In this document: positions 1,107-19,073 of the stretch, in pieces
Layout of the letters: the number at the start of each line of letters is the position of its first letter
Numbering within the stretch: the stretch's first letter is position 1
DNA from: a virus
Virus record (IMG/VR): IMGVR_UViG_3300022200_002327
Span: 1 to 20,398 of that record
DNA: 20,398 nt
Reading direction: 5' to 3' (one strand)
Position numbers and translations under genes: made by a program
The notes under the pieces: generated by a model
The model's input: only the letters and a program-made list of their open reading frames with translations
What the model was told of the DNA's origin: nothing
Databases searched by the model: none

Positions 1107-2936
1107 TTAACTAGCGCCTTGCTCACCAAGGAGACCACGCACGATAACAAGACCATACATATCTGGTCTAACCATCTTCTTAGCGTAACGAGTCATAACA
1201 CCCTTACGTGGTACAAAGTCTTCCGTACCGAAGATAGTAGGCGTAACCTGCAATGGCACGTATGGAGCATATACATAACCGCTCTCAAGGAACGAGTTAC
1301 CTCTACGACCTACGAGGAGCACGTTGCGTGGGAAGTATGGGTCAACCATGACGTCAAACTTCTTGCTAAGTGAACCTGCCTTTACAGCACCGATGTCACC
1401 ACGGTCAGCGTCTGCAGTAACAGAAGCACGGAAACCACTTGTGAACTCAAGGATGTTAGCAACTTCTGGAGAACAAACAACAAAGTTTGCACCACCACGA
1501 AGTGTCTTTCTGTGAATCTGAGCGCTTACGTCATTGATTGTCTCAATGAGAGTCTCGTACCACTCGCTAACGGTACCGGTGAAGTCAGGAGCAGCAGAAC
1601 TAGCACCCAACTCAGAACCCGAACTGTCAACAAAAAGACCTGGAGCACGTGACCAGTAACGAGTACCTGCCTTTGCACCCTGGATTAAGTCGCTAAGGAT
1701 TTCTTGGTCGATTTCGAGAGCAATCTGCTCAGAAAGAATACCAGTCAACTCAACCTCTGCGTCCAAGTTGTGATAAGCATTGAGGTCCTGACCTAACTCA
1801 GGAGTCCACTTTGCCTTCAACTTCTTGGTCTGTGCGGTAACAGCGATGCTGTCAACCTTGATGTCGATTTCTGGGATTCTTGAATCCTTTCCGAGTGAAG
1901 ACCTGTTAGCGTTGCCGTCAGCAGCACCTTCCAATGGGAAGTCACTAGCAACAACTGCGCCGAGACCACTTGGAGAACCTGCTGCACTAAAACTATCGTT
2001 TACAGGGAAACTTACCGCGCCAAGAGCGTCACCAGCTGCGAGTGCAGCAGTTCCGTTTACGTGAGTAATCGCAGTTCCTGCTGTGTTAACAAGAACGAAA
2101 CGAAGCGTAGTGGCGTCAACCTTCTGAGTAAGTCTTCTAATGCAACGTGTGTTTGCAACGAGAGTTGTAGCAGCGGTACCGTCGTCAATAGATACGATAG
2201 CAGTACCTACACCCAAGTCAATTGCCTGAAGTGCATCTTCGTTAAGGTTTGACATCTTGGCGAAATCAGTAGTCACGATTGCAATCGCATCACTTGAGTT
2301 TGCCAAAACATCTGGGTCAAACTTCATCAACTTCTTCTCTGCCTCAGTAAGAGCAGAAACCAACTTAGATGCAACCTCAATTGTCTGGATTACAAGACCA
2401 CCATTAGTAGCGTGGTCTGCATCAGTGCCGGTCGGGACAACTGAACCAGTTGCGTGAGAGTATCCAGTACCAAGGTCATAAAAACCACCAGGTCCACCTT
2501 GAGTCAAGTCATCATCAAGGTCAACACCGTTAATCAAGTTACGACCTACAACGTTACCACCGTAGATTGACTCACCAGCAGCAAGACCTGCGATGCTATC
2601 GCTGTGGACAAAATCCAAGAAGAAGATAAGTCCACTTGGAAGACTCATTGGTTGTACACTAACCAAATCATTTGCAATCAAACCACCGAATACACGACGG
2701 ACGATTGGGAAAGCAACTGATGCGAAACCTTCGACATCACCTGCAGACATTGAGGACGCTTCACGAAGAAGTTCCTTTGCTTGGTTCTCAAGAAGAACCG
2801 CCATACCATTTCTCTGGTTCTCGTTCGTAATTCCTTCAAGAAGTCCAGTTTGCTCCCACTTTGCAAGAAGTGCTTGACCTTCCTTCGAGACGTCACGACG
2901 AACAATACCTTCAGTTAATTTTTCTAATACAGACAT
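1107..2936 (-). CDS. 23: Major capsid protein gp23, T4-like (609 aa)
   Basis: This is the main shell protein of the prohead. ATG at 2936 is preceded by AGGAGG. Family landmarks: VQPMSLPSGLIFFLDF at about 94-109, the long conserved block from SRIPEIDIKVD (352) through AYHNLDAEVELTGILSEQIALEI (388-409), and a C-terminal block with YAPYVPLQVTPTIFG (556-570) and KGVMTRYAKKMVRPDMYGLVIV. Proteins of this family are trimmed by gp21 after an L/I-x-E site. The sequence LLRE-ASS at residues 56-62 offers such a site at E59/A60, close to the position of the T4 cut. At 609 residues it is longer than T4 gp23 (521). Extra Ala/Thr/Val-rich sequence at about 230-335 looks like an inserted domain. A late-promoter-like site precedes it and a terminator follows. 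Confidence 0.96.
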   Translation of the reverse strand: MSVLEKLTEGIVRRDVSKEGQALLAKWEQTGLLEGITNENQRNGMAVLLENQAKELLREASSMSAGDVEGFASVAFPIVRRVFGGLIANDLVSVQPMSLPSGLIFFLDFVHSDSIAGLAAGESIYGGNVVGRNLINGVDLDDDLTQGGPGGFYDLGTGYSHATGSVVPTGTDADHATNGGLVIQTIEVASKLVSALTEAEKKLMKFDPDVLANSSDAIAIVTTDFAKMSNLNEDALQAIDLGVGTAIVSIDDGTAATTLVANTRCIRRLTQKVDATTLRFVLVNTAGTAITHVNGTAALAAGDALGAVSFPVNDSFSAAGSPSGLGAVVASDFPLEGAADGNANRSSLGKDSRIPEIDIKVDSIAVTAQTKKLKAKWTPELGQDLNAYHNLDAEVELTGILSEQIALEIDQEILSDLIQGAKAGTRYWSRAPGLFVDSSGSELGASSAAPDFTGTVSEWYETLIETINDVSAQIHRKTLRGGANFVVCSPEVANILEFTSGFRASVTADADRGDIGAVKAGSLSKKFDVMVDPYFPRNVLLVGRRGNSFLESGYVYAPYVPLQVTPTIFGTEDFVPRKGVMTRYAKKMVRPDMYGLVIVRGLLGEQGAS

Positions 2937-4313: not shown

Positions 4314-4739
4314 CTAAAAATTCGAAAGTCCTGCTGCAACCCTGTCGTCACCATGAAAGTTGTGTGCAGACCCCTGAAAGTACAACCTATCAACACCCGC
4401 AATTTCAAAAATTCTGTGGTTGTCCTTTGCTTGGTTAAAAGTTAGTTCAACTTGATTGCCGGAAACATCATAAAGTTCTGCCCAGACTCCTGAAGCATAG
4501 TTGAATCCCCAAACTGTTAAGGTGTGATTCTCGTCGTTCTGACTATTCTTTACATAGATATGAAGAAACCTTTCGTTCTCTGTTCTATACCCATCTGTTG
4601 CTGCTGATGGTGCTGCGGTCGGAAGAGTGGTGAGAGCGTCGTGGAGCATTGTCCCGAAAGCACCTGCAATATTTCTGATACCTCTATGTCTTCCGAAACT
4701 TGAATATCTATGAAAACCTGAACTTGTACTTGCTGCCAT
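4314..4739 (-). CDS. Probable structural protein, second tandem paralog (141 aa)
   Basis: ATG at 4739 follows AGGAG. The protein shares its N-terminus MAASTSSGFH.YSS.GR with the preceding gene (4750-5166). Several later blocks also match: TENERFLHIYV (53-63 region), ASGVWAEL, HRIFEIAGVDRL and a final Ser-x-Phe. The pattern of short alternating hydrophobic strands suggests a small beta-sandwich, as in decoration or tail-tube-type proteins. The second half differs mainly in loops (NSQNDENHT versus TTGGSVAN). No enzymatic residues stand out. Placement between gp21 and gp22 makes a head-associated role likely, but this is inference. The two genes are 10 bases apart and surely arose by duplication. 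Confidence 0.75.
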   Translation of the reverse strand: MAASTSSGFHRYSSFGRHRGIRNIAGAFGTMLHDALTTLPTAAPSAATDGYRTENERFLHIYVKNSQNDENHTLTVWGFNYASGVWAELYDVSGNQVELTFNQAKDNHRIFEIAGVDRLYFQGSAHNFHGDDRVAAGLSNF

Positions 4740-4749
4740 TGCTTATCTC

Positions 4750-5166
4750 CTAGAATGTTGAACAAGCAGCATAAACACTTGTAGTATCCGCACCAAGGTT
4801 AAATGCTACGAGGTCAACTCCATCAATTTCAAAAATCTTATGCTGACCGGTTGCTACCGTACAAGAACTGCCACCGATAATAAGTTCTGCCCATACCCCA
4901 AAGGCATATGAGTAAACAAAAATATTAGCGACAGAACCACCTGTAGTCGCTGTAACATGTAAGTACCTTTGGTTTTCTGTGTTGTAAACTCCGCTTGCCG
5001 GTGCTGCCTTGCTTGTTGTTGTAATAGCATCAGTAATTGCCTTTGCTGCTGCTACAGATGCAACATCCACAACTGCCGTACCATCAGCACCAGTTACAGA
5101 CTTTGGTCTGCGAGTTCTACCCCAACTGCTATACGTGTGAAATCCTGAACTTGTGCTCGCTGCCAT
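4750..5166 (-). CDS. Probable structural protein, first tandem paralog (138 aa)
   Basis: ATG at 5166, with TGGAGAT as the ribosome site. It starts MAASTSSGFHTYSSWGR, followed by an Ala/Thr-rich segment (about 28-58) and then YNTENQRYLHVTA, YAFGVWAEL, GQHKIFEIDGVDLVAFNLG and a C-terminal STF. All of these have counterparts in the next gene at 4314-4739. No signal peptide or membrane helix is seen. The conserved shared core (TEN-R-LH, GVWAEL, H-IFEI-GVD) probably marks the fold, while the Ala/Thr-rich insert is specific to this copy. A capsid decoration or neck/tail role is plausible from location. I know no named T4 equivalent. Confidence 0.75.
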   Translation of the reverse strand: MAASTSSGFHTYSSWGRTRRPKSVTGADGTAVVDVASVAAAKAITDAITTTSKAAPASGVYNTENQRYLHVTATTGGSVANIFVYSYAFGVWAELIIGGSSCTVATGQHKIFEIDGVDLVAFNLGADTTSVYAACSTF

Positions 5167-10126: not shown

Positions 10127-11713
10127 TTATCCTTTAAACAACCAAGGAAATTGCTCATAAGTTTGAGACTGCTGCTTCCTCTTTTCAAAGACGCTATCAC
10201 CCTCATACCCATGCATTCCTTTTATTGTAGTATTCATTTTAGTTTTTGCTGCCACCATTGTAGCAAGAAATGCTTTATTATATTCTATACTTCTCTTATT
10301 CTCAATCAAAGCAGTATCCCTTACCCAACAACCAATTGCACACGCCATAATCAAGTCATCATTATATGACCGCATTGCTTCAGGTCTCCCGTTGTTCCAT
10401 ACAAACGTTTTCATCTCACTATAGAGACGGGGAGAATTTATCGTAATTAGTTCATTTCTTACAAATTCTTCCAACTTTGCCACAATCAATGGTCTCGTCT
10501 TCTGACTTGTAGTAAACCCTGCCACAGCATTTGATGCTGCTTCAGCAGTAACCTGGTCCACATACTCGTGCGACGATTTGATTGAGTGGTAGATATTAGG
10601 ATACTGCATTTCTTTTAGTTTGTCAAGTACTGCAAAACCAACAGTGTTATTTTCTACAACTATCATGCAATCACCATATTCTCTTCCAGCGTCAAACAAA
10701 ATCTGAGAGAACAAATCTGGAGTCTGTCTTCCTTGGTATTCTGCCACAATCTCCATCGTAAGGGTGTCAAATATATGAAATACTGAAAAGTCTTTCCCGT
10801 CTCCTCTAGCAACATCTGCGCTGAGAAGATAAGGAACACCTGCTTCTGCTTCCTTCCATATCCAATAGTTTCTATCAAATCCTGTTTTATATTTTGGTTC
10901 AGCGACGTGTTGTCTAATCGCTTCCATTCTATCTGGGTGGAATACTGTTTCACCAGACATGTTGAAGTTGCACTCCAACTCTTGAGCGATTTGGCGACGA
11001 GACATATTTTTGGTTTCTTTCTCAAACCATTCCTGACCTCTGTCTGGATGTACATCCCACGGAAGGTTCATTGGGAAAAAATCGTTAGAACCATTCTCTG
11101 CATCAACATAAGTTTTGTGAAACCAGTTGCCAACACCGTTTGGAGTTGAGAGGGCGATACAACGACCACCAGTAGATAGTGTTGGATAAAGACCAGTCCA
11201 CAATTCATCAAGTCCCTCAACGTGTGCCGCCTCGTCCACAACCAAAAGTGATAGCGCTTCTGAACGACCAGCGTCTCCCGAAGTAGAAGATGCTTTAATT
11301 TGAGACCCGTTTGTTAATTCGAACGACGTTCTATTGTCTACAGATACTTGCGCGATGCGTATCCAGTCCGGACAGTTTCTCATAATTGTTTTTACTTTCT
11401 TTACAAGATTTGCCGCAGTACCAAACTTAGTTGCCAGCACCAACACATTCTTTTCCTTGTGAAACATCATCAACCACACCACGTATGCTGCTGTAACGGT
11501 CGATAAACCCAACTGGCGTGCCTTAAGTACAATATTAAACCGATGGTCCTCAAAGTTCTTAAGAGCATCCTTTTGAAATGGAAATGTCTTGAATGGAATT
11601 AAACCTTTTAGTGGGTGTGTGATTTTTGCATAATTTGTGATAAAATAGTCTGGGTCCCTGCCGGACTTAACTATTTCTCGCATTATTTCTTTCTTAGTTA
11701 AGACTGAATTCAT
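10127..11713 (-). CDS. 17: Terminase large subunit gp17 (528 aa)
   Basis: This packaging ATPase and headful nuclease docks on the portal. Translation starts at ATG 11713, overlapping the stop of the upstream gene by four bases (ATGA). ATPase motifs: Walker A-like ARQLGLST at residues 65-72, Walker B LLVVDEAAH at 156-164 with Asp160 and catalytic Glu161, and the coupling motif LST at 188-190. The nuclease domain shows LLSADVARGDGKD with Asp300, MIVVENNTVG with Glu354, and SYNDDLIMACAI with Asp452/453, the three acidic positions of the RNase-H-type fold. Length is below T4 gp17 (610), mainly from a shorter N-terminal part. Unlike T4, where tail genes 18 and 19 separate 17 from 20, the portal gene follows directly. 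Confidence 0.97.
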   Translation of the reverse strand: MNSVLTKKEIMREIVKSGRDPDYFITNYAKITHPLKGLIPFKTFPFQKDALKNFEDHRFNIVLKARQLGLSTVTAAYVVWLMMFHKEKNVLVLATKFGTAANLVKKVKTIMRNCPDWIRIAQVSVDNRTSFELTNGSQIKASSTSGDAGRSEALSLLVVDEAAHVEGLDELWTGLYPTLSTGGRCIALSTPNGVGNWFHKTYVDAENGSNDFFPMNLPWDVHPDRGQEWFEKETKNMSRRQIAQELECNFNMSGETVFHPDRMEAIRQHVAEPKYKTGFDRNYWIWKEAEAGVPYLLSADVARGDGKDFSVFHIFDTLTMEIVAEYQGRQTPDLFSQILFDAGREYGDCMIVVENNTVGFAVLDKLKEMQYPNIYHSIKSSHEYVDQVTAEAASNAVAGFTTSQKTRPLIVAKLEEFVRNELITINSPRLYSEMKTFVWNNGRPEAMRSYNDDLIMACAIGCWVRDTALIENKRSIEYNKAFLATMVAAKTKMNTTIKGMHGYEGDSVFEKRKQQSQTYEQFPWLFKG

Positions 11714-13647: not shown

Positions 13648-16600
13648 TTAGACGCGAACATGTGCAAACCCATTTCTTTTATCTATTATGATTTGCGTAT
13701 CTACTGCGTCTTTAAGAGTATCTAGGTGTGAAATCAAAATAACTGTCTTGAAATATGACTTAACCATGTCAATTATGCGAACAAAACCCTCCATATTTTC
13801 TGCGTCAAGAGCAGTTCCTGGTTCATCCAAGATAAAGATGTCTGGTTTTGGAAGACTAGATACAGACAACAAAGCAAGGCGAATTGCCATCGCAGCAATA
13901 GTCTTCTCAGCACCAGAACCCATCTCTATAAGTCGTGCGCCGTGCTTTGGATGTTTGATAAAAATATCCAAACGCATTTCACTGTTCTCAATAAAGACTT
14001 CAAAATCAACAACACCCGTCAAAACCTTTGCGATTTCCTCATTGATGACAGGCAACCTGTTCTTGATGATATTATGCGAAATGCCATTCTTGTGAAAACA
14101 AGTCATAAACAATTCATAAGCAGCAAACTCAGAGCGTAGCGATTCTAGTTCCGCCTTGTTTTCTTCAAGATTTCTTATCTTCTGTTCTACAGAACCGACT
14201 TCCCTCAAGAGTTGGTTGGTTTCTTTCTTGCAGTCATCACACTGTTTAATATATTTTTTAGACTCTTTTTCCAACCTTCTCTTCTCTGATAAGAGTCCTT
14301 CCAAGTCTTCAATTGCTTCCTTATTATCTTCGTATTGAGTCATCTTGTCGTTAAGTTTATCAAGAATCGTATTTTCCTTAAATAACTCAGAGTCCTTCTT
14401 TTCTATCAAGAGGTTTGCTCTACTTAACTCATCACCGATTTCACCCAGTCTTTCTGCCAGCGAATGATACTTTTCAACATAACCCAGAACCCTTTCTGGG
14501 TCCATATTGTTTGTCTGTAGGTCAAGAGAGTTGATTTGTTTAGAGATGTCTTTCATCAAAACAGTCTTAACTTGAACCAACCCAGTCGCTTCGTGTGCGT
14601 CTTTTATGAACTTACACCCTGGAAAAGAATCACCACAGGGAACTTCTTTTAGAAGGTTCGCTCTTGTTGAGAGTCTAGACTTCTCTGTCGACGCTTCCTC
14701 CAGTTCCTTTGTGTAAGAGTCAATCAACTCTCGGTTTTTTAAAATACGCTCTCTTTTTTCCTCAAACGTATCGATGTCAAACTCTGATAAGAATTGAGAT
14801 ATCTTCTGATGCTTCCCTTTTGATTCTTCAATTTTCTCCAAGAGTTCTTCTTTCTCTTTTTCGATTCTCCGAATGTTAGAAGTTCTTGTTTTAATTTCCA
14901 TACGAACCTTAACCGGGTCAATGACCTCAGTCGGAGCAGATTCAATCTTAGTCCCAATGGAATTGACCTGTTCGCGTATATCTTCAATTCTTCCTTGAAG
15001 CACTTGGCACTCTTCTTGATTCTGTTCCATCCTTTCAGTTTTCTGTAAAAGTTCCTCTTTTGCTCGTTCAATTTGCTCTGCATATTCTACTCCTTCTAGT
15101 CTTTTTAGTGCACCGCGAATGTCCGTTGATTCGGTCTTCGCCTGTTCGAACTTTTTCTCAAATACTTGCAAATCAAGAAATTTTGCAAGCGCTGCTTTCC
15201 TCTTTGTTGACCCGTCATTAATAAACCTCAAAGAGTCAAGTTGTGACGCCATTGAAGTAATATAGAAATCATCTATAGAACCAAAATACTTTCTTATGGC
15301 GGCATCAGTCTTCCTTTTATCCATAGCATTTAAGCAATCCACTATCCCCGATTCATCTTTTGAATAGAATTCTAGACTAGTATCTGCTCCAGTTGGACTT
15401 TTTTCGCTCCTCTCTGCTCCACGTTCTATAACATAAGTCTTTCCTGATATGTTAATTTCCGCTTTCGCATAACAACCATCTGCATGTTCATTGATGATAT
15501 TGGTTATCTTTGAAGATTTAGAAGTTGTATTGTAGATGGAGTAAAGCATACTATCAATGATAGAAGACTTACCAGAAAAATTCTTTCCAAAGATTCCAAC
15601 AGTACCCTCCAGTTTGGTAAAGTCGATAGAGTTTTCATCTCCGTAATTAAACAACCCACCCCATTCAAGTGACTGAAGACTCCAGTTTATGTTTCTGTGT
15701 ACCTCGTTTTCTTCTTCTGCTATCTTGTTTAATCTCGAATTAAGTTCTAAGACCTTAGTCATAACCTCGTCATCACATTGATAGTCTGCAAGATACTCTG
15801 TTATCAGTCTATTTTGGGTCTTAACATTTCTCAAGTCTTCATAGTTTAGACCGTCCGTCTGTACAGGAACTGACGCAGAAGAGACCTTGTTTGAATACCT
15901 CAAACTTTCTGGTTTGAACTTAAACCTAGCAATATCCATACTTTTTCGCCAAACGTCAGGCGAAAGGTTACTCTCTGCCACAAGTCTAACCCTAGCACCA
16001 AGTGGGACATCTATCTCTGGAAGAGACCCGTCTTCGTTCAACACGAGAGTAACATAAGGTATTGGATTCTTGAAAGTTATTAGTCTGTTCTTAAACTTAT
16101 TCTTACTCTCAATGTCCCACAGTAAGTACCCCTTATCCGTAGACTCTCCAAAGTTCTGCTGTACAGTAGAACCCGGATACCATATGCGACCTTCCTTGTC
16201 TAGTTGTTGGGTCTTGTGAATATCACCAAGAAAAGCAAAGTCAAACCTATCAAAGATGCTAATATCATGGTCGCCTCCCAAAGTCCAATTGAGGTCAGTC
16301 TTGGACTTGTTGATAGCACCGTGGTAAAGTGCAATATTAACTATGCTTTCATCCGTAGGATTTTGCCAGTTTTCTTCATCAAACACAGACAATACGTTTA
16401 AACAGAAGTTTTTATCAATCTTAACTTCACCTGCGTTCTTGAGCAAGAACAAGTTATCATTGTTCATCGCTCTTATGATTGGCGATATAGCGTCCTCTCT
16501 CTTGCTGTTTGTGAGGTTACCATCGTGATTACCCAAGATGATATACGTTGGTGCTATTTCTGCAAGATTAGCAAAAAAGCGAGTTGCCATATCAACAAAC

Positions 16601-16764
16601 TCAGGAGATATCTGAGTTTTCGTGTGAGCAATGTCACCACAATGAATAATATAATCCACCTTCTCTTCTCTTAGAGATTGGTATAGTTGTTTAAAAATTT
16701 CGTTGTATTCAAAATGAAATCTAAGGTTGCGGATATGTGTATCCGCAATGTGAGCAAACCTCAT
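13648..16764 (-). CDS. 47-46: Fused recombination nuclease-ATPase, gp47 (SbcD/Mre11) + gp46 (SbcC/Rad50), 1038 aa
   Basis: One open frame joins both subunits. Residues 1-about 345 are the metallophosphoesterase: DTH (8-10), GDIAH (43-47), GNHD (78-81), YHG with His148, and GDIHK with His183, the manganese ligands of Mre11/SbcD. A short link leads to the ABC ATPase: Walker A GKNFSGKSS (393-401) and Q-loop Gln508. A long coiled coil spans about 540-890 and carries Cys710 and Cys717 at its centre. The signature MGSGAEKTIAAMA (948-960), Walker B FILDEPGTALD (977-987) and H-loop His1013 follow. In T4 these are two adjacent genes. The complex processes DNA ends for recombination-dependent replication. 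ATG at 16764 has GGAGG. No internal stop or frame break is seen. Confidence 0.93.
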   Translation of the reverse strand: MRFAHIADTHIRNLRFHFEYNEIFKQLYQSLREEKVDYIIHCGDIAHTKTQISPEFVDMATRFFANLAEIAPTYIILGNHDGNLTNSKREDAISPIIRAMNNDNLFLLKNAGEVKIDKNFCLNVLSVFDEENWQNPTDESIVNIALYHGAINKSKTDLNWTLGGDHDISIFDRFDFAFLGDIHKTQQLDKEGRIWYPGSTVQQNFGESTDKGYLLWDIESKNKFKNRLITFKNPIPYVTLVLNEDGSLPEIDVPLGARVRLVAESNLSPDVWRKSMDIARFKFKPESLRYSNKVSSASVPVQTDGLNYEDLRNVKTQNRLITEYLADYQCDDEVMTKVLELNSRLNKIAEEENEVHRNINWSLQSLEWGGLFNYGDENSIDFTKLEGTVGIFGKNFSGKSSIIDSMLYSIYNTTSKSSKITNIINEHADGCYAKAEINISGKTYVIERGAERSEKSPTGADTSLEFYSKDESGIVDCLNAMDKRKTDAAIRKYFGSIDDFYITSMASQLDSLRFINDGSTKRKAALAKFLDLQVFEKKFEQAKTESTDIRGALKRLEGVEYAEQIERAKEELLQKTERMEQNQEECQVLQGRIEDIREQVNSIGTKIESAPTEVIDPVKVRMEIKTRTSNIRRIEKEKEELLEKIEESKGKHQKISQFLSEFDIDTFEEKRERILKNRELIDSYTKELEEASTEKSRLSTRANLLKEVPCGDSFPGCKFIKDAHEATGLVQVKTVLMKDISKQINSLDLQTNNMDPERVLGYVEKYHSLAERLGEIGDELSRANLLIEKKDSELFKENTILDKLNDKMTQYEDNKEAIEDLEGLLSEKRRLEKESKKYIKQCDDCKKETNQLLREVGSVEQKIRNLEENKAELESLRSEFAAYELFMTCFHKNGISHNIIKNRLPVINEEIAKVLTGVVDFEVFIENSEMRLDIFIKHPKHGARLIEMGSGAEKTIAAMAIRLALLSVSSLPKPDIFILDEPGTALDAENMEGFVRIIDMVKSYFKTVILISHLDTLKDAVDTQIIIDKRNGFAHVRV

Positions 16765-16780
16765 CTAACCTCCGATGCTT

Positions 16781-16972
16781 TTAGATGTTAATGTTTTCGT
16801 TAATGTGATTGAACAGTCTTTCGAGAAAGTTGATTTTCTGGGATTCGTTTAAACTTTCTAGTTTTTCAATTGCCTCTTCTGCTGCGACAAAACCCTCGTC
16901 AGAAGTGTCGAAAGACCTTTGAATCTCTTCGTTTATAAGATTTTTAAGTTTATCTTTTTCTATTTTCATCAT
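16781..16972 (-). CDS. Small acidic helical protein (63 aa)
   Basis: It begins with ATGATG directly at the TAA of the primase gene, with GGAGG ahead of it. Either Met could start; the upstream one at 16972 is given. The sequence MMKIEKDKLKNLINEEIQRS, then FDTSDEGFVAAEEAIEKLESLNESQKINFLERLFNHINENINI, is Glu/Asn/Lys-rich and predicts two or three amphipathic helices. It has no Cys, no membrane segment and no recognised motif. The tight spacing between the primase and the recombination nuclease suggests a helper in replication or recombination, but nothing in the sequence itself shows this. Confidence 0.7.
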   Translation of the reverse strand: MMKIEKDKLKNLINEEIQRSFDTSDEGFVAAEEAIEKLESLNESQKINFLERLFNHINENINI

Positions 16973-17923
16973 TTAACCTCCAAAGTTAAGTTTTTGTAGT
17001 AAATAGTCTTGTCTCGTAACAATAGAAGCACGTTTCTTATACTCACTCAATAAGTGATTTGGTACCTCGCCCAAATCAGAATAGTCATATAATTCTATTT
17101 TACATACTTTGATACCAAAGTCAAGAAGATTTTTAACTATTTTTAATTCTTTCTTTCTCGCGTCCTTGTCTAAACAAACATACACGGTACTACACCTGTC
17201 AACTACCTTACTAAAAAGTTTAGTTTTCATGTTGAGTGTCGAACCCAATACTGGAATGCTATTTTCGTACTTTAGGGAATCAAAAAAACCTTCTACTAAA
17301 ACTACCGGTTTTGTCCAGTCTATAAACAGGTCGTTAAAAACAACATCCTTTGAGCAGGGAGGGTTCTTGTATTTCAGGTAATGTTCATCATACGAGCGAG
17401 CAATAAAATAATTTAAATCTCCACTGTCGTCAAAGGAGGGAACGATGACCCTGCCACCATAAGGACCGTGATGGCAAAAACCAATCTTGTACATAAGAAT
17501 ATCTGAATATGAAACACCCCTGTCTAGAAGATACTCTAACGCCCTTTTGCCCGCTGCAGACAACTTTTTAGTAGACAAGGTAGAATAGTACTCTGGTAGT
17601 TCTAGTTTCTGTGTTTCTTGCTCTTCTTTCTTCTTAAAAATATCTTCAAAAGTAGTCAGGTCAACCTGATTTGTTAACTCTCTCCATCTAGACTTGAGGT
17701 CTTTGTTGACCAGGGGGTCAATCTTGCTTCCACGATAGTCACACACCCAACACTTAAAAACATTTTTATCTATGTTGACTGAAAGTTTTCTTTTTTCATG
17801 ATTGCATTTTGGACAATAAAACAGTATCTCGTCATTCGACCTTTCGTAAGACCCGAGACTCTGTTTTATAATACTTAATTTTTCACTGTACAAAGGATGT
17901 AACCTGCTTTCGCTATAACCCAA
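16973..17923 (-). CDS. 61: DNA primase, gp61/DnaG-like (316 aa), TTG start
   Basis: This enzyme makes RNA primers for lagging-strand synthesis with the replicative helicase. The zinc finger has CPKC at 37-40 and CWVC at 58-61. A linker (about 70-125) precedes the Toprim catalytic domain: VVLVEGFFDSLKY at about 209-221 with the acidic Glu, and VCLDKDARKKE with the DxD-type acidic pair. Length is close to T4 gp61 (342). No ATG precedes the zinc finger in this frame. A stop lies three codons upstream of TTG at 17923, leaving TTG 17923 or TTG 17893 as the start. The first is given. The gene overlaps the RuvC-like gene by 49 bases, so initiation is probably coupled. Confidence 0.85.
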   Translation of the reverse strand: MGYSESRLHPLYSEKLSIIKQSLGSYERSNDEILFYCPKCNHEKRKLSVNIDKNVFKCWVCDYRGSKIDPLVNKDLKSRWRELTNQVDLTTFEDIFKKKEEQETQKLELPEYYSTLSTKKLSAAGKRALEYLLDRGVSYSDILMYKIGFCHHGPYGGRVIVPSFDDSGDLNYFIARSYDEHYLKYKNPPCSKDVVFNDLFIDWTKPVVLVEGFFDSLKYENSIPVLGSTLNMKTKLFSKVVDRCSTVYVCLDKDARKKELKIVKNLLDFGIKVCKIELYDYSDLGEVPNHLLSEYKKRASIVTRQDYLLQKLNFGG

Positions 17924-18405
17924 CTGTCGGACTTATCCATTACGCCCGGTTTTACATTTCCATTCTTTGTATATTCTACTACAAAGGCAGGTTCGTTTGC
18001 AACAACAAAATCAAAACTTTTGTCTTTTCCTTTCTCGCCTTTTGATACTTTTATGCCAACCTGCTTTCTCGCTGATGTTGCGGCGAGCATTTGTGGTTCG
18101 TGACCAAACATATCCCAACACACCCAAGATATCATCCCGTTAAATCTCGACAGTGTCGATAGTGTTTGGGCAGAGGAGAATCCAGACCTAAACGACTGGA
18201 GAGACTGCTCGACGAATATGTGCTCAAACTTGTACCTATCATACAATTCCTGCAGATGTTTTTTAATGTGGTGCGCTTTATGGTAAATTGTTGGATAATG
18301 ATTCTTGTTTCTTGTATCCCAATATTCATTATATACGCACGCACCAGTGCTGTCAAGAACAGTAGCACCCGTTATGCTCGTTGAAATATCTAAACCTAAT
18401 ATCAT
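17875..18405 (-). CDS. RuvC-like Holliday-junction resolvase (176 aa)
   Basis: This is an RNase-H-fold nuclease that would cut four-way junctions made by recombination and replication, clearing branches before packaging. The acidic catalytic positions are visible: GLDISTSITG with Asp6, HIFVEQSLQSF with Glu66, and the C-terminal DKSDSWVIAKAGY with Asp157 and Asp160. The order strand-Asp, Glu, late Asp-x-x-Asp is that of RuvC. T4 itself uses the unrelated endonuclease VII (gp49), whereas marine T4-like phages often carry RuvC-type proteins. ATG at 18405 overlaps the preceding stop (ATGA), and the 3' end overlaps the primase gene by 49 bases. No strong separate promoter is seen. Confidence 0.85.
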   Translation of the reverse strand: MILGLDISTSITGATVLDSTGACVYNEYWDTRNKNHYPTIYHKAHHIKKHLQELYDRYKFEHIFVEQSLQSFRSGFSSAQTLSTLSRFNGMISWVCWDMFGHEPQMLAATSARKQVGIKVSKGEKGKDKSFDFVVANEPAFVVEYTKNGNVKPGVMDKSDSWVIAKAGYILCTVKN

Positions 18406-19073
18406 TTATTCTCAATAATAAAAGAAGCATACCCTTCAATGAGTTTCTTCTTCTGTTCACTATCTTCTAAATGATACCATTCCCATGCAACACTTTTTGT
18501 GATTTGTTTTACCTGATTGTTGATTGATGCAATCTTTTGCTGCAATGAACCAAAATTTATGTTTATCTCTTCTGGTATTTCTATGTCTAGTTTCAAAGCA
18601 GATTCGATTAGTTTAAAATAATCCTCGTTGGTAATTGCCTTGTTGACTTCTTGAAGAATCTTTTTCTTTTCTTCATCATCTTTAATCTTGTCTGGATGGG
18701 TCTTGCTTGCAATCTTTCTATAAAGAGATTTAAATTCTTTTGGAAGTTCCTTTTTTGGTTTGTCTGGTGGAGGTTCGTAGACATGCTGCTCCTGCCTTTC
18801 TTCTACTTTTGTTTCGCCTCTTTTATATTGCTTTTGCTGCTTTGCTCTTTTTGCTGTTTTTGATGACCGCTTCTCGTTCTCTCCGGCGAGACCTGCTGCT
18901 TGTTTTAGTTTGTGTTTTGCATTTCCGTCTTCAACGGAATCGATATATTCCTTGAACATTTCAGAGAACTGAGTCATCGCTTCCTGGTTTATCTTTTGAT
19001 GTATTTCAAGTTTCTTTATCGCAAACTTGAGTTCGTGTATCTTGAGGTCGAGTATCTCGTTTCTGTTCTTCAT
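18402..19073 (-). CDS. J-domain (DnaJ-like) protein (223 aa)
   Basis: ATG at 19073 shares a base with the stop of the upstream structural gene (TAATG). The N-terminal 50 residues form a coiled coil (EILDLKIHELKFAIKKLEIH). A basic disordered segment follows (about 65-110, KRSSKTAKRAKQQKQYKRG and Pro-rich PPPDKPKKELP). The J-domain covers about 112-170: FKSLYRKIASKTHPDK with HPD at 126-128, then the helix ILQEVNKAITNEDYFKLIES. A helical C-terminus ends WYHLEDSEQKKKLIEGYASF. The intact HPD suggests it can stimulate a host DnaK. The coiled coil would target a client, perhaps a virion or replication protein. Related J-proteins occur in marine T4-like phages. Confidence 0.85.
   Translation of the reverse strand: MKNRNEILDLKIHELKFAIKKLEIHQKINQEAMTQFSEMFKEYIDSVEDGNAKHKLKQAAGLAGENEKRSSKTAKRAKQQKQYKRGETKVEERQEQHVYEPPPDKPKKELPKEFKSLYRKIASKTHPDKIKDDEEKKKILQEVNKAITNEDYFKLIESALKLDIEIPEEININFGSLQQKIASINNQVKQITKSVAWEWYHLEDSEQKKKLIEGYASFIIENK

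Follow-up and report, generated by a model that had tools for sequence, protein, structure and literature searches.

Does the interval 13648-16764 of this viral sequence hold a single gene in which an SbcD/Mre11 nuclease is fused to an SbcC/Rad50 ATPase, and, if so, what enzyme would such a gene provide? The window, by which we mean the whole stretch of DNA analysed, is an IMG/VR virus record of 20,398 bases with T4-type genes, namely those for a Gp23 capsid protein, a Gp21-like protease, a Gp20 portal, a terminase, a DnaG-type primase, and a RuvC-like resolvase (Pfam and PHROGs). Our reading, to which we give a probability of about 0.86, is that a T4-type phage here encodes Mre11-Rad50 (SbcD-SbcC) as one catalytically intact chain, which corresponds to T4 gp47 plus gp46 and most likely works as a homodimeric end-resection enzyme. 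The gene and the neighbors that bear on it are as follows.

1107..2936, minus strand: T4-type major capsid protein, Gp23 (Pfam, PHROGs)
10127..11713, minus strand: terminase large subunit (Pfam, PHROGs)
13648..16764, minus strand: fused SbcD/Mre11-SbcC/Rad50 gene, 1038 aa (ORF list, Pfam, PHROGs, motifs)
16769..16773, minus strand: Shine-Dalgarno sequence GGAGG, 4 nt ahead of the ATG (-9 to -5; printed sequence)
16781..16972, minus strand: 63-aa ORF between the primase and the fusion (ORF list, neighborhood comparison)
16973..17923, minus strand: DnaG-type primase, conserved upstream neighbor of the fusion (Pfam, PHROGs, neighborhood comparison)
17875..18405, minus strand: RuvC-like resolvase, conserved neighbor of the fusion (PHROGs, neighborhood comparison)

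A primase lies at most 1.5 kb upstream of the fused gene in 69 loci, and the 63-aa ORF has a counterpart in L027 (92% identity). Elsewhere in the window, a protein of 223 aa that weakly matches a DnaJ domain (18402-19073) adjoins the RuvC and primase genes and is present in 8 of 108 related loci; two adjacent small proteins (4314-4739 and 4750-5166), both without a PHROG match, have the common N-terminus MAASTSSGFH.YSS.GR and are likely a tandem duplication.

The 1038-codon ORF runs unbroken from an ATG start to a TAA stop on the minus strand, and the plus strand of the same interval has many stops; the initial annotation had therefore placed the ORF correctly while leaving its strand unstated. 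Its further proposals, that one uninterrupted frame contains both domain sets with their motifs in order, and that this is a gp47+gp46-equivalent fusion in which every ATPase chain carries the nuclease at its N-terminus, are borne out by Pfam, PHROGs, and our motif check. Pfam assigns Metallophos to residues 1-183 and AAA_23/SMC_N to residues 372-1029, and the PHROG matches cover residues 1-361 (SbcD) and 313-1035 (SbcC). Both domains thus lie in one unbroken chain with Mre11 first, as in fusions of the R555 type, which we divide as follows.

16030..16764, minus strand: Mre11/SbcD metallophosphoesterase nuclease core, residues 1-245 (Pfam, motifs, alignment, model)
15841..16029, minus strand: Mre11 capping region, residues 246-308, of which 295-306 are modelled poorly (model; probable boundary)
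15709..15825, minus strand: helix-loop-helix, residues 314-328 and 332-352, predicted Rad50-docking motif (AlphaFold2 model)
15688..15708, minus strand: interdomain linker of ~7 residues, 353-359 (AlphaFold2 model)
15169..15687, minus strand: Rad50 ATPase N-lobe, residues 360-532, with Walker A GKNFSGKS and Q508 (Pfam, motifs, alignment, model)
14644..15168, minus strand: ascending coiled-coil arm, residues 533-707 (AlphaFold2 model)
14614..14643, minus strand: hook apex, residues 708-717, with C710-x6-C717 (CGDSFPGC) replacing CxxC (motifs, alignment; putative zinc binding)
14095..14613, minus strand: descending coiled-coil arm, residues 718-890 (AlphaFold2 model)
13651..14094, minus strand: Rad50 ATPase C-lobe, residues 891-1038, with signature SGAE, Walker B ILDEP, and H-loop H1013 (Pfam, alignment, model)

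The nuclease half has the complete SbcD/Mre11 metallophosphoesterase motif set, DxH, GDxx(D/H), GNH(D/E), H, and GxxH, in the form of D8-x-H10, G43-D44-IA-H47, G78-N79-H80-D81, H148, and G180-D181-I-H183; the metal ligands of the core are D8, H10, D44, N79, H148, D181, and H183. The SbcC/Rad50 set is distributed over two lobes flanking the coiled coil and comprises Walker A (G393-S400), the Q-loop (Q508), the SGxE signature (S950-G-A-E953), the Walker B DE pair (D980-E981), and the H-loop (H1013). Aligning 79 full-length sequences (relatives 26-75% identical to the window protein) shows that nuclease residues 8, 10, 44, 47, 79, 80, 148, 181, and 183 and ATPase residues 395, 398-400, 508, 950, 951, 953, 980, 981, and 1013 are invariant (79/79), which excludes chance. 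Judged from these residues, both active sites appear intact, and nuclease activity is predicted. Asp181 stands where T4 gp47 (GHFH) and Pyrococcus furiosus Mre11 (H206) have a histidine, and metal binding may therefore differ. As a marker of fusion, the GDIH motif was ruled out by the split Vibrio phage PG07, whose D12-like protein has GDLH, and by the fused GN1, which has GHIH.

The junction between the two halves was examined in an AlphaFold2 model (mean pLDDT 84.9; overall pTM 0.51, with the relative domain placement not fixed by it). The model places the helix-loop-helix directly ahead of Rad50, where an SbcD/Mre11 has its C-terminal one, and we predict by analogy with Thermotoga maritima Mre11 (PMC3175470) that residues 314-352 are the Rad50-docking motif. 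The Rad50 strand begins at residue 360, so the linker first put at 345-360 holds for the region near 350-360 and narrows to residues 353-359. The segment N346-R357 is 11-13 residues long in all 79 relatives. Seven free residues reach at most ~28-30 Å, which matches the ~28 Å that separates the C-terminus of Mre11 from the N-terminus of Rad50 in the complex of T. maritima (PMC3175470), so that docking in cis would be possible, though tight. In phmmer and profile searches, SbcD/Mre11 and SbcC/Rad50 structures were matched separately, and no solved single-chain fusion structure was among the matches. At the far end of the molecule, a modelled coiled coil of ~175 residues per arm closes in a short apex loop carrying CGDSFPGC. 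Cys717 is present in 76/79 relatives and Cys710 in 55/79, and the hook differs by subgroup, being C-x6-C (CGxx[FY]xxC) in that of the window and C-x2-C in that of Microcystis phage Mel-JY01; the C-x6-C pair may act as a zinc hook.

Our reading draws directly on the single frame, the domain order, the invariant catalytic residues, the conserved linker length, and the predicted fold. Two copies would most likely pair through their nuclease domains and their ATP-bound Rad50 heads, giving a homodimer topologically the same as an M2R2 complex, in which the helix-loop-helix of each chain would dock on its own coiled-coil root via the ~7-residue linker. ATP turnover would then open the heads and let the nuclease reach DNA ends, and the product would probably be 3' single strands, which could feed a phage RecA/UvsX-type recombinase for recombination-dependent replication and repair. 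A single chain fixes a 1:1 stoichiometry, and a natural Mre11-Rad50 this compact (1038 residues, short coiled coil) could be convenient for determining the structure of the complete enzyme. We found no biochemical work on any member of the fusion class.

Among the alternatives, the one that survives best, although we consider it improbable, is that the fusion is a specialised paralogue, serving host-DNA degradation, defence, or counter-defence alongside a normal gp46/47 pair; where a cellular organism has a fusion, it nearly always has the canonical pair as well (PMC3175470). However, in 14 long contigs (95-204 kb; as IMG/VR contigs, possibly incomplete), we found one convincing SbcC place in 14/14 and one convincing SbcD in 13/14, the two together, and no second SbcC or convincing second SbcD, with only G004 giving two extra, weak, near-threshold matches (E 8.5e-4 and 1.1e-4). 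The gene also sits within a primase-RuvC block. A Gp23 capsid gene is present in all 14 long contigs, in Mel-JY01, and in megaphage LR756508, and a RecA-family recombinase gene in 13/14 long contigs, in keeping with a part for the enzyme in recombination-dependent replication.

Marginally less probable still is that the fusion is made as one translation product but functions as two proteins, with proteolysis or internal initiation yielding free Rad50. An in-frame ATG at residue 335 does follow a GAGG, at a spacing of only 2 nt, but conservation of this Met is lacking (Leu is the most frequent residue there among the 79 relatives), a start there would halve the helix-loop-helix, and the linker is short and conserved in length.

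We give next to no weight to an assembly or sequencing artefact (a lost stop, frameshift, or chimera), which is known from Listeria phage LMTA-57, where a missing base in an A-run creates an apparent 1009-aa fusion, but which cannot explain an open frame with a near-constant linker length because every terminase-selected relative with a whole gene, plus an isolate, has it fused. This isolate, Mel-JY01, has a single 1066-aa gene (WWT39521.1) of the same architecture, preceded by a primase and then a 57-aa ORF, the latter at the position equivalent to the 63-aa ORF of the window. In scans of viral contigs with the fused protein, nearly all loci were single ORFs of 1027-1066 aa, and the architecture is common to well over 100 independent contigs; by these counts, the fused gene is not an assembly artefact. 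LMTA-57 itself (L118:3917-6946) was rejected as a further fusion: it is 97.5% identical to P100 (L127) over the region, and the A-run error, a probable homopolymer sequencing error relative to P100, sits at the end of the SbcD gene. In P100, SbcC is annotated as two ORFs owing to another one-base difference.

To see how widespread the fusion is, we used the terminase large subunit as a lineage marker independent of it. Among the 80 loci so selected, 33 have a complete fused gene, 14 have one cut by the contig end, and 33 are too short to reach it; no split or missing gene occurred among the loci with at least 7 kb of upstream sequence, and all complete genes beside a related terminase are fused (33/33). 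A scan with the nuclease motif only, in whose best 80 of at least 589 loci split forms may be under-sampled, gave 69 complete fusions and 11 genes cut by a contig end yet running from nuclease into ATPase. On this evidence from contig sequences, fusion is the fixed state in the gp23-type phage lineage of the window. The initial annotation had supposed the fusion to be uncommon, and had itself named a common fused state in marine T4-like phages as the finding that would overturn this view; it is overturned by the 33/33 terminase-selected genes, by the 80/80 among the best of at least 589 nuclease-motif loci, and by separate isolates carrying different fusions of a class described in 2011 (PMC3175470). 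Plasmid relatives of the fused protein were limited to short partial matches. A 685-aa truncated relative (48% identical) occurs in L134 (CP070664.1, a 2.8-Mb 'chromosome' of a WOR-3 MAG) and would be a prophage, a remnant, or a misassembly.

A tree of the nuclease and ATPase lobes from 25 phages, with LMTA-57 scored as split, groups the window with Mel-JY01, LR756501, and Tenacibaculum phages pT24 and PTm1 in a clade of 13 members, all of them fused (support 100/99); the pairs of T4, S-SKS1, Melnitz, and the SPO1-like and T5-like phages fall outside it. A second fused group (GN1, RHph_TM30, and phiLo) is placed among split phages, so that the tree requires at least two changes between fused and split states, the exact number being unsure given the long branches of PG07, Moor, Nic, phiLo, and GN1. 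With the same caution, the tree does not support one common origin for every phage fusion. A fold search of BFVD with the whole model returned giant-virus DNA-repair proteins first, those of Tupanvirus (E 2.1e-62), Harvfovirus, Yasminevirus, and Catovirus, and then pT24 and PTm1. It is conceivable, at somewhat less than an even chance, that a single ancestral fused gene moved between bacterial and eukaryotic viruses and underlies both the gene of these aquatic T4-type phages and the R555 of giant viruses; if so, the mimivirid repair enzyme would descend from a phage replication enzyme or be its sister.

Sequences outside the window, from a sister sublineage, have the fused gene split anew within its nuclease half, in each case immediately past GDIHK (L026:3304-6547, L233:2301-5556, L234:2443-5698, and L238:3474-6755). 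The first fragment has 224-228 codons, all metal ligands, and a conserved extra tail, e.g. FVIDENDLDQYPGAEIL, and the start for the rest of the nuclease and Rad50 overlaps it or lies after it. That the split is conserved at 47-55% identity speaks for a genuine two-chain nuclease in these four loci. In the 484-kb megaphage LR756508 (L004:7944-12169), a 305-aa ORF with a weak TnsA-like endonuclease match interrupts the fused gene at this same site, and an Rfam scan found no intron above threshold in the insert. Genes split by homing endonucleases exist, for example nrdA of phage Aeh1, and the split past GDIHK resembles them. As the reading frames lie, the re-splitting is at a site other than the nuclease/ATPase junction.

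The Mre11/Rad50 fusion class has been known since 2011, when Yoshida, Claverie, and Ogata described it in Mimivirus R555, Bacillus phage 0305phi8-36, bacterial plasmids, and eukaryotes, and the window is a further member. In their data, R555-like reads were concentrated in the viral fractions of aquatic samples; they suspected that phages were the source and predicted that aquatic phages carry such fusions (PMC3175470). In the passages of a 2021 jumbo-phage review that concern them, SbcC and SbcD are nearly universal and no fusion is mentioned (PMC7824862); a literature search on Mel-JY01 gave no result. What we add is its fixation in a large lineage of aquatic Gp23-type phages, which suggests that many of the abundant R555-like aquatic virome reads are fused end-processing enzymes of Gp23-capsid T4-type phages, as Yoshida et al. 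suspected from fragments.

Like R555, the window protein has an N-terminal Mre11 and a C-terminal Rad50 in one chain; it has both odd active-site residues of R555 (GDxxH, and Asp for P. furiosus His206) and roughly satisfies the R555 linker argument (9-12 residues for ~28 Å; PMC3175470). It differs in belonging to a phage with a T4-type capsid, in its much shorter chain (1038 versus 1351 aa) and coiled coil, and in its C-x6-C hook. The Mel-JY01 protein is collinear over 99% of the query at ~30% identity, and its genome has the same primase-small ORF-fusion order and a Gp23 capsid gene, whereas its hook is C-x2-C (CKHC). T4 gp47/gp46 and the Kyanoviridae-type marine pairs of S-SKS1 and Melnitz have the same domains and a phage replication/recombination role but, as the initial annotation rightly held for T4 and well-known phages, use two separate genes, which the window does not; T4 and S-SKS1 also have a GHxH motif and a CPTC hook in gp46, in place of GDIH and C-x6-C. 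Finally, Escherichia coli SbcCD and the P. furiosus and T. maritima Mre11-Rad50 complexes share the fold and catalytic motifs of both halves, but are built from two chains, and E. coli SbcC (1048 aa) has a longer coiled coil.
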